The notes under the pieces were generated by a model. The model saw only the letters and a list, made by a program, of their open reading frames with translations. It made no database searches and was not told the origin of the DNA. Source: Bacteroidota bacterium (GTDB lineage Bacteria > Bacteroidota > Rhodothermia > JANXDC01). Taken from it: DNA of 64,000 bases. Below are positions 6,155 to 11,581 of the stretch, in pieces; positions within the stretch are counted from its first letter, which is position 1; the number at the start of each line of letters is the position of its first letter. Made by a program: the position numbers and the translations under genes. The stretch is from assembly GCA_025059945.1 (NCBI GenBank), contig JANXDC010000001.1, forward strand, positions 127,677 through 191,676, read 5' to 3'.

Positions 6155-8020
6155 ATGCCGAACGGGGCAAGCGCGACGCTAGAGGCCAAGCTAGAGGGCC
6201 TGCCCGCAAAGCCCGGTGTGTACGTATTTCGAGACCGCAACGGGAAGGTGCTCTACGTGGGCAAGGCCCGCTCCTTAAGGCAGCGGGTGCGCTCTTACTT
6301 TCAGGAAAGCCGGCATCGGGACGGCAAAACGGCCGCGCTCGTGCAAAAGATCGCGGACCTGGAATGGATCGTGACCGACACCGAAGCCGAGGCCCTGATC
6401 CTGGAGAACACGCTCATCAAACAGCACCGGCCCCGGTACAACGTAAGCCTGCGCGATGACAAGACGTACCCTTTTCTCTGCATCAAGAACGAGCCCTTTC
6501 CGCGTCTGGTGCTCACGCGCCGGCTCGTCCGGGACGGCTCCCGCTACTACGGACCGTACACGGACGTGCGTCAGGTGCGCGCGCTATTGCGCTCCATACG
6601 GGAGATCTTTCCGCTTCGCAGTTGTTCGCTCCAGTTGACTCCAGAGAACATCGCGACGGGCAAGTTTCGGCCCTGTCTGGACTATCACATCGGCCGCTGC
6701 AACGCCCCCTGCGTGGGATGGGAGTCCCTGGAGCAGTACGAGGAGACGATCCGACAAGTGGAGCAGGTCTTGCTCGGCCACACCGGCGCGCTAATCGAGC
6801 AGCTTAAGGCGCGCATGATGGCCCTGGCCGAGGCGATGCGTTTTGAGGAGGCCGCTCGGATACGGGATCGCATCCGGGCTCTGGAGCAAATGAGCGCTCG
6901 TCAGAAGGTGGTCTCCGCCGAGGCCGTTGATCGCGACGTGCTCGCGCTCGCCTGGGAGCCAGATCTGGAGGTGGCTTGCGCGGTCGCCTTTTTCATCCGC
7001 GAAGGGCGGCTTATCGGCCGCCGCCACAGGTACCTGCACAACGTTGGCGGCCGAAGCCCGGAGGAGTTGCTGCAGGTCTTTGCGGAGCGCTACTACCTTG
7101 AGGAGGCCTCCTTGGTGCCTCGAGAGATCCTGGTGAGCCACTCCTTAGCCCAGCCCGAGGCCTTAAGCGCCTACTTGCAAGCCCAGCGAGGCGAGCCGGT
7201 ATCGATTCGGCTTCCGGACTCGGAGGAGGAGGTCGCGCTTCTGCGCATGGCCCGCACGAACGCCGAACTGCTGCTTGGTGAATGGCGGCTGGCTCGGGAA
7301 CGGGAGGCCGAAGCTCGCCTGCCGATGGCTTTGCGCGCCCTGGCGCGGGCCCTGGATCTGCCGCATCCGCCCCGGCGGATTGAGGGCTTCGATAACGCGC
7401 ATCTGCACGGAGAGGCCCTCGTGGGGGCTATGGTCTGCTTCGTAGACGGTCGCCCGGCCCGACGGGAGTACCGGCACTATGTTGTGCGCACCGTTCAAGG
7501 TCCGGATGATTTCGCCGCCATGCGCGAGGTCGTCTATCGCCGCTACAGGCGTGTGCTCGAAGAGGGGGCTTCGCTTCCGGATCTCATCCTCGTCGACGGG
7601 GGCAAGGGGCAGCTCAGTGCGGCCCTGGAGGCGCTTTCCGCGCTTGGGATCGTCGATCGGATTCCCGTGGTGGGGCTGGCTAAGCGGCTAGAGGAGCTGT
7701 TTCTGCCTGATCGCAAGCAGCCTCTGCAGCTACCGCGCACCTCTCCGGCCCTGCGCCTGCTGCAACAGATTCGCGACGAAGCGCATCGGTTCGCCCGCTC
7801 CTTGCATCATCGGCGCCGCGCTCGGGTCCAGCTTGCGCTGGAGTGGGAGGCCATACCGGGCATCGGGCCCAAGACGATCCGGCGCCTGTTGGAGCACTTC
7901 GGCTCCCCGGAGGCTGTTCGGCGGGCATCGGAGGAGGACCTGGCAGCCCTCGTCGGTCCGACCCGCGCCCGACGCCTGCGGGCGCACTTTTCGGGCGCCG
8001 CACCGGAGCTGGGATCTTAG
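6155..8020 (+). CDS. uvrC: Excinuclease ABC subunit C (UvrC)
   Basis: Dual-incision nuclease of nucleotide excision repair; cuts on both sides of a lesion marked by UvrB. The GIY-YIG domain is at the N-terminus (KPGVYVFRDRNGKVLYVGKA, then RSLRQRVRSYF). A Cys-rich stretch (FRPCLDYHIGRCNAPCVGW) is typical of the UvrC Fe-S/Zn ligand region. The UVR domain is around residue 225 (AEAMRFEEAARIRDRIRAL), an RNase H-like endonuclease domain runs about 380-540 (FDNAHLHGEALVGAMVCFVD, LILVDGGKGQLSAA), and tandem helix-hairpin-helix motifs close the protein (IPGIGPKTIRRLLEHFG). At 621 residues it is normal. Its stop codon interlocks with that of the convergent CBM48 gene. Confidence 0.97.
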   Translation: MPNGASATLEAKLEGLPAKPGVYVFRDRNGKVLYVGKARSLRQRVRSYFQESRHRDGKTAALVQKIADLEWIVTDTEAEALILENTLIKQHRPRYNVSLRDDKTYPFLCIKNEPFPRLVLTRRLVRDGSRYYGPYTDVRQVRALLRSIREIFPLRSCSLQLTPENIATGKFRPCLDYHIGRCNAPCVGWESLEQYEETIRQVEQVLLGHTGALIEQLKARMMALAEAMRFEEAARIRDRIRALEQMSARQKVVSAEAVDRDVLALAWEPDLEVACAVAFFIREGRLIGRRHRYLHNVGGRSPEELLQVFAERYYLEEASLVPREILVSHSLAQPEALSAYLQAQRGEPVSIRLPDSEEEVALLRMARTNAELLLGEWRLAREREAEARLPMALRALARALDLPHPPRRIEGFDNAHLHGEALVGAMVCFVDGRPARREYRHYVVRTVQGPDDFAAMREVVYRRYRRVLEEGASLPDLILVDGGKGQLSAALEALSALGIVDRIPVVGLAKRLEELFLPDRKQPLQLPRTSPALRLLQQIRDEAHRFARSLHHRRRARVQLALEWEAIPGIGPKTIRRLLEHFGSPEAVRRASEEDLAALVGPTRARRLRAHFSGAAPELGS

Positions 8021-8313
8021 AGCTCTAGAACGCAGTCGTCGCTTCCGAACGGGTTGGGCACGTAGCGGTCGGCCGCCTCGTCGTTATGCCACCAGCTCTC
8101 GTCCACGTAGTAGCGGAACCTATAGGCGCGGCCTGGTTTGAGGCGAAGCGTTAGCCGCCAGCGGCCATCGGAAGTCCGTTCCATTAGGTGCGCATCGCGG
8201 CTCCAGGCGTTGAAGTCGCCCACCACGGCCACGCGCTCTTGAGCGATTGCACCGGGCAACTCAAACGTCACCCGGCATGATTGGCCCTTGGGGCTGTAGT
8301 GTTTCGTGATCAT
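8017..8313 (-). CDS. Stand-alone CBM48/isoamylase N-terminal-like glycogen-binding protein
   Basis: A 98-residue single-domain protein resembling the early-set carbohydrate-binding module of glycogen-branching enzyme, isoamylase and AMPK-beta. The diagnostic strand VAVVGDFNAWSRDAHLM (family form: V.L.GDFN.W) is followed by GRWRLTLRLKPGRAYRFRYY and VPNPFGSDDCVLEL. No signal peptide, so cytoplasmic. It is divergent from the GH13 gene, which lacks such a domain, so the two may cooperate on alpha-glucans. It may instead be a regulatory glycogen-binding protein. The 3' end overlaps the uvrC stop by four bases. Confidence 0.8.
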   Translation of the reverse strand: MITKHYSPKGQSCRVTFELPGAIAQERVAVVGDFNAWSRDAHLMERTSDGRWRLTLRLKPGRAYRFRYYVDESWWHNDEAADRYVPNPFGSDDCVLEL

Positions 8314-8325
8314 GGGTGACCCCCT

Positions 8326-8357
8326 TTGCGTTTTTACGGTCTTGGGGCGTATTTCGG
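8326..8357 (+). promoter_or_regulatory. Predicted promoter of the GH13-polX operon
   Basis: TTGCGT (8326-8331), 18-base spacer, TATTTCGG (8350-8357), a partial TAnnTTTG match. It lies downstream of the earliest possible GTG start at 8316, which argues for a later start codon for the GH13 gene. Confidence 0.4.
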
Positions 8358-8414
8358 GGCGTTCCCAAGATGGAATCCGGCCATAGGATCGCGCAATCGG
8401 GTTGCCGATTCTTC

Positions 8415-9917
8415 ATGATGCCTCGGGAGACGGATCACCCTAACACGCTTGAGGTGCACGCGCGCGTTTGGCTGCGCCAGTGGCGCCTGCGCACAGGCAA
8501 GCCCGAGCTCACGCTAGCCGACCTGCCTGAAGAGGCCCTAGAGGAGGTCGCTGAGAGGAGCTTTGATCTACTCTGGCTTATGGGGGTTTGGGAGCTAAGT
8601 CCCGGAGCGCGCACGATCGCGCGTCGGTTGGCGCAGCAGAGCCCGGAATACCGGCGCTTGTTGCCCGACCTAAAGCCCGAGGACGTGGAAGCCTCTCCAT
8701 ACGCGGTGGGCGCTTACCGTGTGGCGGCCGATCTGGGCGGCGAGGAGGCCTTGAGGAGGCTGCGTCGGCGTCTGGAGCGACGCGGGGTGCGTTTGCTGCT
8801 CGATTTTGTGCCCAATCATACGGCCTTGGACCACCCCTGGGTGTGGGAGCATCCAGAATATTACGTGGGGGCCCCCGCCAATGCGGCCGTTCCGGACCCC
8901 GCACAGAGCTTTGAGGCCGAGACCCGGCTTGGTCCCTGGCGCTTTGCGTACGGCCGCGATCCCCATTTTCCAGCCTGGATCGATACAGCCCAGCTGAACG
9001 TATTTTACCCCGCCACCCGACAGGCCCTGCTGGCGACCCTGCGCAAGATCGCCCGCCTATGCGACGGGGTTCGTTGCGACATGGCTATGCTGCTGCTCAA
9101 TGACGTCTTTGAGCGCACCTGGCGGCCCTGGTTGGGCCCGCAGGCCCGTCCTGAGAGCGAATTCTGGCCGGAGGCGATCTTTGAGATCCGCCGGGAGCAT
9201 CCGGATTTTTTGTTTTTGGCCGAGGTCTACTGGGACCTGGAGTACCGGCTGCAACAGCTGGGCTTCGATTACACCTATGACAAACGCTTCTACGATCGGG
9301 TCCTGTGGAGCACCGGGGAGATGATCCGAGCCCATCTGGTGGCGGATTGGGATTATCAGGTGCGCTGCGTGCGCTTTTTGGAAAATCACGACGAAGCCCG
9401 CGTCGCGGGCCGACTCCCCCCGGCTCAACATCGGGCCGCAGCCGTGCTCTTGGCCACGATCCCGGGCATGCGCCTTTGGTATCAAGGTCAGCGCGAGGGA
9501 CGGCGGCTGCGCGCGCCTGTGCAGCTGGTGCGCTGGCCGGAGGAGCCGACGGATCTGGCCATGGCCACCTGGTATGATCAGTTGCTGGCCCTGCAGCGGC
9601 ATCCCGCGCTGCGTCAAGGATGGTGGCGCTTGCTTGTTCCGGAACGGGCCCTGGAAGGCGAGGAGGCCTATCGGAACGTGATCGCTTATCGATGGGACGC
9701 CGGTCGTCAGGGCCGCCTGCTGGTCACGGTCAACTACCAAGCCCGGCGCGCACTCGCCCGGGTGCGTCTGGATGTGCTGGGGGTCTCGGGCCGCACGGTT
9801 AAGCTTCGCGATCGCCTTTCGGGTAAAGAGCTCATCGGTCCGGGCTCCGAGTGGTTCGAAGAGGGGATCGTGCTGGAACTCGAACCCTACGAGGCCAACG
9901 TTTGGGAGATCCTCTGA
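8415..9917 (+). CDS. GH13 alpha-amylase-family glycoside hydrolase
   Basis: Predicted alpha-glucan-active (beta/alpha)8-barrel enzyme acting on starch, glycogen or maltodextrin. The four GH13 regions are visible: LLLDFVPNHTALDHP; DGVRCDMAMLL with the nucleophile Asp; FLAEVYWDLEY with the acid/base Glu; RFLENHDEAR with the transition-state Asp. A C-terminal beta domain ends about residue 500. No signal peptide, so probably intracellular. The reading frame is open from a GTG at 8316, but ATG at 8415 or 8418 better matches where the barrel begins and lies below the predicted promoter; ATG 8370 is another choice. polX starts two bases after the stop. The exact specificity (amylase, glucosyltransferase, trehalose-related) cannot be decided here. 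Confidence 0.85.
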   Translation: MMPRETDHPNTLEVHARVWLRQWRLRTGKPELTLADLPEEALEEVAERSFDLLWLMGVWELSPGARTIARRLAQQSPEYRRLLPDLKPEDVEASPYAVGAYRVAADLGGEEALRRLRRRLERRGVRLLLDFVPNHTALDHPWVWEHPEYYVGAPANAAVPDPAQSFEAETRLGPWRFAYGRDPHFPAWIDTAQLNVFYPATRQALLATLRKIARLCDGVRCDMAMLLLNDVFERTWRPWLGPQARPESEFWPEAIFEIRREHPDFLFLAEVYWDLEYRLQQLGFDYTYDKRFYDRVLWSTGEMIRAHLVADWDYQVRCVRFLENHDEARVAGRLPPAQHRAAAVLLATIPGMRLWYQGQREGRRLRAPVQLVRWPEEPTDLAMATWYDQLLALQRHPALRQGWWRLLVPERALEGEEAYRNVIAYRWDAGRQGRLLVTVNYQARRALARVRLDVLGVSGRTVKLRDRLSGKELIGPGSEWFEEGIVLELEPYEANVWEIL

Positions 9918-9919
9918 GC

Positions 9920-11581
9920 ATGGACAACCGCGCCATCGCGGAGGGGCTGCAGGAGGCGGCGGCGTTGCTGGAGCTGTTGGCCCAAGATGCGGCCCGCGCC
10001 CGGGCCTACGAGCGAGCCGCGCGTCTTGTGGCTCAGCTGGGCCGGCCCGTGGAGGCGATCCTGCGCAGCGAGTCCGCTCGGATTCCGGGCATAGATCCGG
10101 AGACCCAGCGGGAGATCGCCCAGTGGGCGCGCAGCGGCCGCTGGGAGCTATTGGAGCGCCTCCGGGAGGCCGTGCCCCCGGGGGTGCGGGAGCTCTTGCG
10201 CTTGAAGGGGCTGGGCCCTAGGCGGGCGGGGCTTCTGTGGCGCGGGCTTGGCGTGGAGTCCATCGAGGACCTGGAGCAGGCCTGTCGGCTGGGCCGGCTG
10301 CGCGCACTCGAAGGCTTCGGTCCGACGCTGGAGGCCAAGCTCGCCGAGGCCGCGGCCCAGTATCGCCGCTACCGCACCCAGCGTCGTCTGGCCGATGCCC
10401 TAGCGGAGGCGGAGCCCCTGCTGCGCGCGCTCCGGATGCTGCCCGGTGTGGCGCGGGCTGAGCTGACGGGTGCGCTGCGCCGACACTGTCCCGTGGTTTC
10501 GGCCTATGAGTTTTTGCTCGTCACGGCCCGTCTGGAGGTTGTGCGGGAGCGCCTTCCGGATCTGCAGTGGACCTTCCGGGGGCCGGATCTGCTGGAGGGG
10601 CGCACCGAAAGCGGCGTTCCGGTCCGCTGTTGGGGGACGGATTTTCGGCGCTTCGGCACGCGCTGGATTCAGACCACCGGCTCTCCGGAGCACGTCCAAG
10701 AGCTTCAGGCTCGAGGTCCGCTTCCGGAGGCCATCACGGAAGAGGCCGTTTACGCCGCCCTGGGGCTTTCGTATGTGGCTCCGCCCCTGCGCGAGGGGCG
10801 GGGAGAGGTCGCGCGCGCCGCGCAAGGGCGGCTGGGACGCCTTGTGCAGGTCCGCGACCTAAGGGGCATCCTGCACGTGCACACGACGTACTCCGACGGC
10901 ACGGTTTCGCTTCGCGACATGGCCCTGGCTTGTCAAGAGGCGGGCTACGCCTACATGGGCGTCTGCGATCACAGCCAAAGCGCCCGATACGCGCGGGGCC
11001 TGGAGCCGGAGCGCGTGCGCGAACAACAGGCCGAGATCGAGCAACTAAACGAAGCGCTTGCGCCGTTTCGCCTCTACAAGGGCATCGAGGCCGATATCCT
11101 GCCCGATGGCTCTCTGGATTACCCCGAGGAGGTGCTGCGGAGCTTCGACTTCGTGGTGGCCTCCGTGCATACGGGCTTTAACATGACCAAGGAGGAGGCC
11201 ACGCGCCGGCTCATCCGGGCCGTGCAGAACCCGCATACCTGTATTCTGGGGCATCCAACCGGCCGCCTGCTTCTGGAGCGCGAGGGCTATCCCGTGGACG
11301 TGCCAGCTCTGTTGCGCGCCTGTGCCGATTACGGGGTGGCCATAGAGCTCAACGCCAATCCGTACCGGCTGGATTTGGATTGGACGTATCTGCCTCTGGC
11401 TGTCGAGCTCGGCGTTATGGTCGCGATCAACCCGGATGCGCACGATCTCGAGGGGCTGGAGGACGTGCGCTATGGGGTCATGGTCGCCCAAAAGGCCGGC
11501 TTAGAGCCGGAGCACGTGCTCAACACGCGCACTCCGGCGCTCTTTGAACGGTGGCTTGCGGAGCGTCGGGCTCATCGCTAG
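9920..11581 (+). CDS. PolX-like protein with a degenerate polymerase palm and intact PHP domain
   Basis: Matches the bacterial family-X DNA polymerase plan: an N-terminal helix-hairpin-helix 8-kDa-like region (about 1-150), a palm/thumb region (about 150-300) and a C-terminal PHP phosphoesterase domain (about 315-553). The PHP metal ligands are all present: HVHTTYSDG, CDHS, IEADIL, VHTGF, HPTGR, NPDAHD. The palm is altered. Where PolX has G-S-L-R-R...G-D-I-D, this protein reads GALRRHCPVVSAYEFLLV, so the first Asp is Ala and the second Glu. The third Asp (V-D-L-R) appears as VPVR. The fingers/thumb motif TTGSPEHV is retained. DNA synthesis therefore seems lost while 3'-5' exonuclease or AP-endonuclease activity may remain. 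ATG at 9920, two bases after the GH13 stop, is chosen over an upstream in-frame start inside GH13. Confidence 0.82.
   Translation: MDNRAIAEGLQEAAALLELLAQDAARARAYERAARLVAQLGRPVEAILRSESARIPGIDPETQREIAQWARSGRWELLERLREAVPPGVRELLRLKGLGPRRAGLLWRGLGVESIEDLEQACRLGRLRALEGFGPTLEAKLAEAAAQYRRYRTQRRLADALAEAEPLLRALRMLPGVARAELTGALRRHCPVVSAYEFLLVTARLEVVRERLPDLQWTFRGPDLLEGRTESGVPVRCWGTDFRRFGTRWIQTTGSPEHVQELQARGPLPEAITEEAVYAALGLSYVAPPLREGRGEVARAAQGRLGRLVQVRDLRGILHVHTTYSDGTVSLRDMALACQEAGYAYMGVCDHSQSARYARGLEPERVREQQAEIEQLNEALAPFRLYKGIEADILPDGSLDYPEEVLRSFDFVVASVHTGFNMTKEEATRRLIRAVQNPHTCILGHPTGRLLLEREGYPVDVPALLRACADYGVAIELNANPYRLDLDWTYLPLAVELGVMVAINPDAHDLEGLEDVRYGVMVAQKAGLEPEHVLNTRTPALFERWLAERRAHR

Follow-up and report, generated by a model that had tools for sequence, protein, structure and literature searches.

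What does a family X DNA polymerase (PolX) do in the cell when its polymerase site appears to have been lost and its nuclease site kept? This question is raised by a gene in a stretch of Bacteroidota DNA (class Rhodothermia) of 64,000 nucleotides, here termed the window. An initial annotation, made from the letters alone, read the gene as PolX with a catalytically dead polymerase palm and a complete PHP nuclease, in which the polymerase part serves only to bind DNA. The open frame and the homology to PolX along its whole length confirm the identity of the protein, and the remaining parts of this reading are considered below.

The polX gene and its surroundings

The polX gene is an open frame of 553 codons on the forward strand, beginning with the ATG at 9920 (Table 1). 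An alternative, longer frame from a GTG at 9851 overlaps the upstream amylase-family gene; the orthologue from the same genus (L031, in the complete genome of Bacteroidetes bacterium KatS3mg041, AP024675) also starts with MDNR, and the ATG is therefore supported as the start. Pfam profiles match the HHH_8, HHH_5, and PHP domains, with the thumb matched only under cut-off, and no Pfam match to a polymerase palm was obtained anywhere in the 553-residue protein. The top NCBIfam match is PolX, slightly under the curated cut-off, and over the full length its nearest solved structures are 3AU2 and 2W9M, the PolX of Thermus thermophilus and of Deinococcus radiodurans, respectively.

Palm strands are present in the AlphaFold2 model (30-sequence alignment; mean pLDDT 93, pTM 0.81), and Foldseek likewise ranks the PolX of Thermus and Deinococcus highest, with TM-scores of 0.63-0.80 and a large rmsd for some entries. 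For the predicted model, these values show that the relative placing of the domains differs among PolX structures.

Table 1. Positions of the polX gene and its parts within the window.
Feature	Position	Strand	Basis
polX, noncanonical PolX, 553 aa, stop codon included	9920..11581	+	start backed by orthologue L031
8-kDa domain (HHH_8), residues 1-74	9920..10141	+	Pfam PF14716, E 8e-14
Glu65, aligned with dRP-lyase lysine Pol beta K72	10112..10114	+	alignment with Pol beta
Thumb and second helix-hairpin-helix (HHH_5), residues 75-150	10142..10369	+	Pfam PF14520, residues 90-145, E 4e-8
Degenerate palm, residues 151-249	10370..10666	+	no Pfam palm match; fold in model
GALRR motif, residues 184-188	10469..10483	+	Gly184, Arg188 invariant in noncanonical set
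Ala195 (GCC), first triad Asp lost	10502..10504	+	alignment
Glu197 (GAG), second triad position	10508..10510	+	alignment
Arg236 (CGC), third triad Asp lost	10625..10627	+	alignment
Shortened fingers, residues 250-290, altered dNTP site Q251/P256/V259	10667..10789	+	alignment
PHP nuclease domain, residues 311-553, nine ligands and six DNA-path residues	10850..11578	+	Pfam PF02811 and alignment

From 6155 to 11581, the window holds uvrC, a CBM48/AMPK-glycogen-binding-like gene on the minus strand (98 aa), a gene of the alpha-amylase family, and polX, whose start and the stop of the amylase gene are 2 bases apart. The order uvrC, CBM48-like, amylase-family, polX, short-chain dehydrogenase is kept in the single same-genus genome available. 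In six genomes from other families of the class (L105, L109-L113), the gene 3′ of polX on the same strand encodes a conserved protein (∼570-720 aa) that has a membrane segment at its N-terminus, although neighboring frames in these six genomes are only a rough guide, since the ORF caller was a simple one that takes frames from the wrong strand where the DNA is rich in GC. This large protein is unrelated to the neighbors of the query, so there is no universal polX partner, and the gene neighborhood was dropped as a functional clue because the partner differs among families of the class. A promoter scan at polX found nothing. Two genomes (G042 and G044) harbor stand-alone frames (L125 and L126; 314 and 244 aa) that resemble only the 8-kDa/helix-hairpin-helix part of PolX, and full PolX is also present in both.

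A degenerate palm and a conserved PHP domain

When 79 prokaryotic PolX proteins are aligned, the catalytic residues D198, D200, and D243 of Thermus correspond to A195, E197, and R236 of the query, and D190, D192, and D256 of human Pol beta (added to the alignment) fall in the same columns. The palm motif is GALRR...VVSAYEF; its first Asp had been read as replaced by Ala and its second by Glu, and both replacements agree with the alignment. The third Asp had been placed at the Pro of VPVR, which was off by two residues: from the third Asp to the T of the TGS motif, Thermus and the query each have 17 residues and zero gaps (DLRVVPPESYGAGLQYLTGS against RCWGTDFRRFGTRWIQTTGS), which rules out Pro234 and therefore sets the third triad position at Arg236, within a palm strand (residues 234-240) of the AlphaFold2 model. 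As aligned, the triad of the query is A-E-R, and since the three acids of a canonical triad are absent, the protein is not a canonical PolX. No replacement acids occur at the triad site in the alignment, and a search for three acids elsewhere in the palm, which would have spoken against the initial annotation, turned up none. The same-genus protein (72% identical) has the triad G-D-R in the same context, and triad acids are similarly lost in 65 of the 79 aligned PolX (query included), so neither chance nor sequencing error accounts for the loss.

The dNTP site is altered as well, in that Q251 occupies the steric gate, P256 replaces a conserved Lys, and V259 replaces Asn, while the GS pair is kept. 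The fingers interval comprises 38 residues in the query versus 54 in Thermus and 56-62 in other canonical PolX. A palm deletion is described for many noncanonical PolX; the palm interval comprises 68 versus 72-74 residues, with borders that were set here and are not those of PMC9226535. Two residues of the dNTP-phosphate motif, Gly184 and Arg188 (Arg183 in Pol beta), are invariant in all 65 noncanonical proteins, which hints that the dead site could still bind a phosphate.

From these replacements, we infer that polymerase activity has probably been lost. That the protein still polymerizes by way of other residues is very improbable: Glu197 is retained, and an older study cited in PMC9226535 did report synthesis by the D. 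radiodurans protein, but two of the three metal ligands are gone, the dNTP site is altered without any replacement acids, and the older result was not reproduced (PMC9226535). Across the 65 noncanonical proteins, exactly one triad acid is kept in 55, and the net charge of the triad is zero in 39. Covariation of this kind (one acid kept, zero charge) is significant by raw counts and not after phylogenetic pairing, and is therefore not claimed.

The PHP domain presents the opposite picture. All of its ligands had been reported to remain, and they do: H319, H321, H351, E390, H417, H445, E476, D506, and H508, giving the full HHHEHHEDH set. Six DNA-contact residues (F420, R449, R454, N478, R483, and K525) are identical to F440, R469, R474, N498, R503, and K545 of Bacillus subtilis PolX, each of which is needed for both AP-endonuclease and exonuclease activity (PMC6616362). 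This conservation argues for nuclease activity in the query. At the N-terminus, by comparison of sequences, Glu65 occupies the position of K72 of Pol beta, the Schiff-base lysine for dRP-lyase activity in the 8-kDa domain. Glu is also found there in the same-genus protein and in D. radiodurans, and Lys in 37 of the 65 noncanonical proteins; the Glu suggests that dRP-lyase activity is absent from the query.

Proteins of this kind were set out as the noncanonical PolX class by Prostova et al. (2022) (PMC9226535). They make up 27.5% of prokaryotic PolX and belong mostly to one cluster of Bacteroidetes and Deinococcus-Thermus, which includes Rhodothermaeota; two members, from D. radiodurans (triad AEE) and D. 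gobiensis (ARE), show no polymerization and are strong Mn-dependent 3′-5′ exonucleases (PMC9226535). An independent 2026 polymerase survey agrees: it describes a PolX1 with an inactive polymerase site, a stronger conservation of PHP residues than of those of the polymerase, and an enrichment of PolX in thermophiles (PMC12926913). In our tree, one side of a branch with an SH-aLRT of 95 holds all 65 noncanonical proteins, including the query. With the palm and fingers columns removed, the single-group tree is 25 log units better than the quick-search tree (p-AU 0.90), and the grouping is thus independent of the degenerate columns. The query is almost certainly a noncanonical PolX with a PHP nuclease. 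The combination of dead polymerase and complete nuclease proposed at the outset has good support from the sequence, from the tree, and from the biochemistry of the Deinococcus homologues (PMC9226535); it was already a known class, and this protein is an ordinary member of a group published in 2022, not a discovery.

A survey of orthologues in the class, which had been suggested as a check, recovered the same losses: among 60 genomes (that of the query and 59 relatives), 20 encode a noncanonical PolX, 29 a canonical PolX, 11 no PolX, and none both. Families f2 and f4 account for all 29 canonical proteins. In 27 of these 29 genomes there is also an ATP-dependent DNA ligase (∼575-613 aa, under the LigD cut-off), versus 2 of the 20 noncanonical genomes with any such match; this co-occurrence may reflect shared ancestry only.

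Among close noncanonical relatives, dN/dS is ∼0.12-0.30 in the palm (where dS is measurable) versus ∼0.08-0.11 in the PHP domain, rough values given that dS is saturated in several pairs; in most canonical pairs, the two regions change at like rates. The palm (and fingers) is, by this rough measure, under relaxed but still purifying selection. A decaying pseudogene or sequencing artifact would also let the palm vary faster than the PHP domain, but this explanation is contradicted by open frames in both genomes of the genus, between which the palm has a dN/dS of ∼0.15 (dS near saturation) and zero indels, and by like triad losses in other members of the class and phylum; we regard it as extremely unlikely. 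A dead palm under constraint fits, without proving, a DNA-binding scaffold. The further claim of the initial annotation, that the polymerase part is only such a scaffold, is thus plausible and unproven: purifying selection on palm and fingers and the invariance of Gly184 and Arg188 speak for it, and the loss of part of the template-contacting fingers speaks against it.

Repair gene content and a candidate role in base excision repair

For noncanonical PolX in general, a part in Ku/LigD end joining, as the nuclease that processes the ends, has been suggested, and PolX and NHEJ genes do co-occur in many bacteria (PMC9226535). However, profile searches gave no match to Ku or to a LigD-type ligase in the genome of the query or in the complete same-genus genome, and Ku is found in 1 of the 20 noncanonical-PolX genomes of the class. 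The published end-joining role therefore misfits this lineage and is here highly unlikely, since the gene content contradicts it, barring a Ku of very divergent sequence.

The same two genomes have neither a model match nor a loose first-look candidate for the AP endonucleases Xth and Nfo, in a search that had positive controls and covered these two of the families that cut at abasic sites. Pol I is present. Within the class, 14 of 60 genomes are without both Xth and Nfo above model cut-offs, and all 14 encode a noncanonical PolX. Three of 111 further Bacteroidota genomes are without both; all three belong to family f17 and have a canonical PolX. Over the total of 171 genomes, Xth and Nfo are both missing in 17 of 82 that bear PolX versus 0 of 89 that do not (Fisher 1.4e-6; 3.4e-6 when G052 is left out, a genome among the 17 whose weak Exo_endo_phos match of 42.7 bits makes the absence less sure). 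The association is weaker when each family-by-PolX-status unit is counted once (9/24 versus 0/18, Fisher 0.005). Within families f3 and f7, PolX-less members have Xth and several PolX-bearing members are without it. Because these genomes share ancestry, and the association was sought only after the absence had been seen in the genome of the query, we treat it as a lead and not as proof.

The idea that Xth and Nfo can be lost once the palm is dead is weakened by family f17, in which both are absent and PolX is canonical, and all 25 noncanonical-PolX genomes sampled outside the class retain Xth or Nfo. The loss is thus probably tied to the presence of PolX, and to its PHP domain, rather than to the dead palm. 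We found no paper in the open-licence literature linking PolX with missing Xth and Nfo in Bacteroidota. Genetic results from other bacteria agree with the association: loss of polX together with xth in D. radiodurans, or together with endonuclease IV in T. thermophilus, is reported to make the cells sensitive to H2O2 (PMC7548837).

With Xth and Nfo missing, abasic-site repair is pointed to as the role of PolX. On balance, we favor a noncanonical PolX, its polymerase site lost, that acts as a PHP-dependent AP endonuclease and 3′-end cleaner in base excision repair. The helix-hairpin-helix domains and the dead palm would grip gapped, nicked, or abasic DNA, and the Mn-dependent PHP site would make the cut; PolX would in this way incise abasic sites and clear blocked 3′ ends, after which Pol I could fill in. 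We infer both the scaffold role of the palm and the abasic-site role of PolX, the latter from gene content and homologues. A different reading, in which noncanonical PolX is mainly a 3′-5′ exonuclease that trims ends (damaged, misaligned, or structured) in pathways other than abasic-site repair, is possible but doubtful. What has been directly demonstrated for the Deinococcus homologues is robust 3′-5′ exonuclease activity (PMC9226535), and one PHP site serves all of the activities, but this reading leaves unexplained the presence of PolX in every genome without Xth and Nfo.

A stronger form of the base excision repair role, in which the polymerase-dead PolX is the only AP endonuclease and 3′-end cleaner of this lineage and replaces Xth and Nfo, is offered tentatively; if true, base excision repair in these organisms relies on a former polymerase. 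What is new here is that both standard AP endonucleases are missing from the genome of the query and that of its closest relative, so that PolX may do their job. This provides a lead on the cellular job of noncanonical PolX: experiments in other organisms show PolX as a backup beside Xth or Nfo, and genomes without either would be natural cases of PolX carrying the load.

Comparison with known PolX proteins

The query shares with the noncanonical PolX of Prostova et al. the triad substitutions, the altered dNTP site, the shortened fingers, and the intact HHHEHHEDH set, and lies within the known range of that class (Bacteroidetes and one or two Rhodothermaeota). It differs in its A-E-R variant and in a genome without Ku/LigD, for which the end-joining link fails; the Xth/Nfo complement of noncanonical-PolX genomes is not discussed in that paper (PMC9226535). 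PolX1 of the 2026 survey has the same inactive polymerase site, and the available portion of that source does not address the AP endonuclease complement (PMC12926913). D. radiodurans PolX (2W9M, AEE) has in common with the query A and E at the first two triad positions, Glu at the dRP-lyase Lys position, and homology over the full length. Its third triad residue is Glu where the query has Arg, its fingers interval is 53 residues versus 38, and D. radiodurans, unlike the organism studied here, carries Xth (PMC7548837). The canonical PolX of T. thermophilus (3AU2) and B. subtilis have the same domain order, PHP active site, and DNA-path residues as the query, but they polymerize and keep the D-D-D triad, the dNTP site, and the full fingers, sites that the query does not keep.
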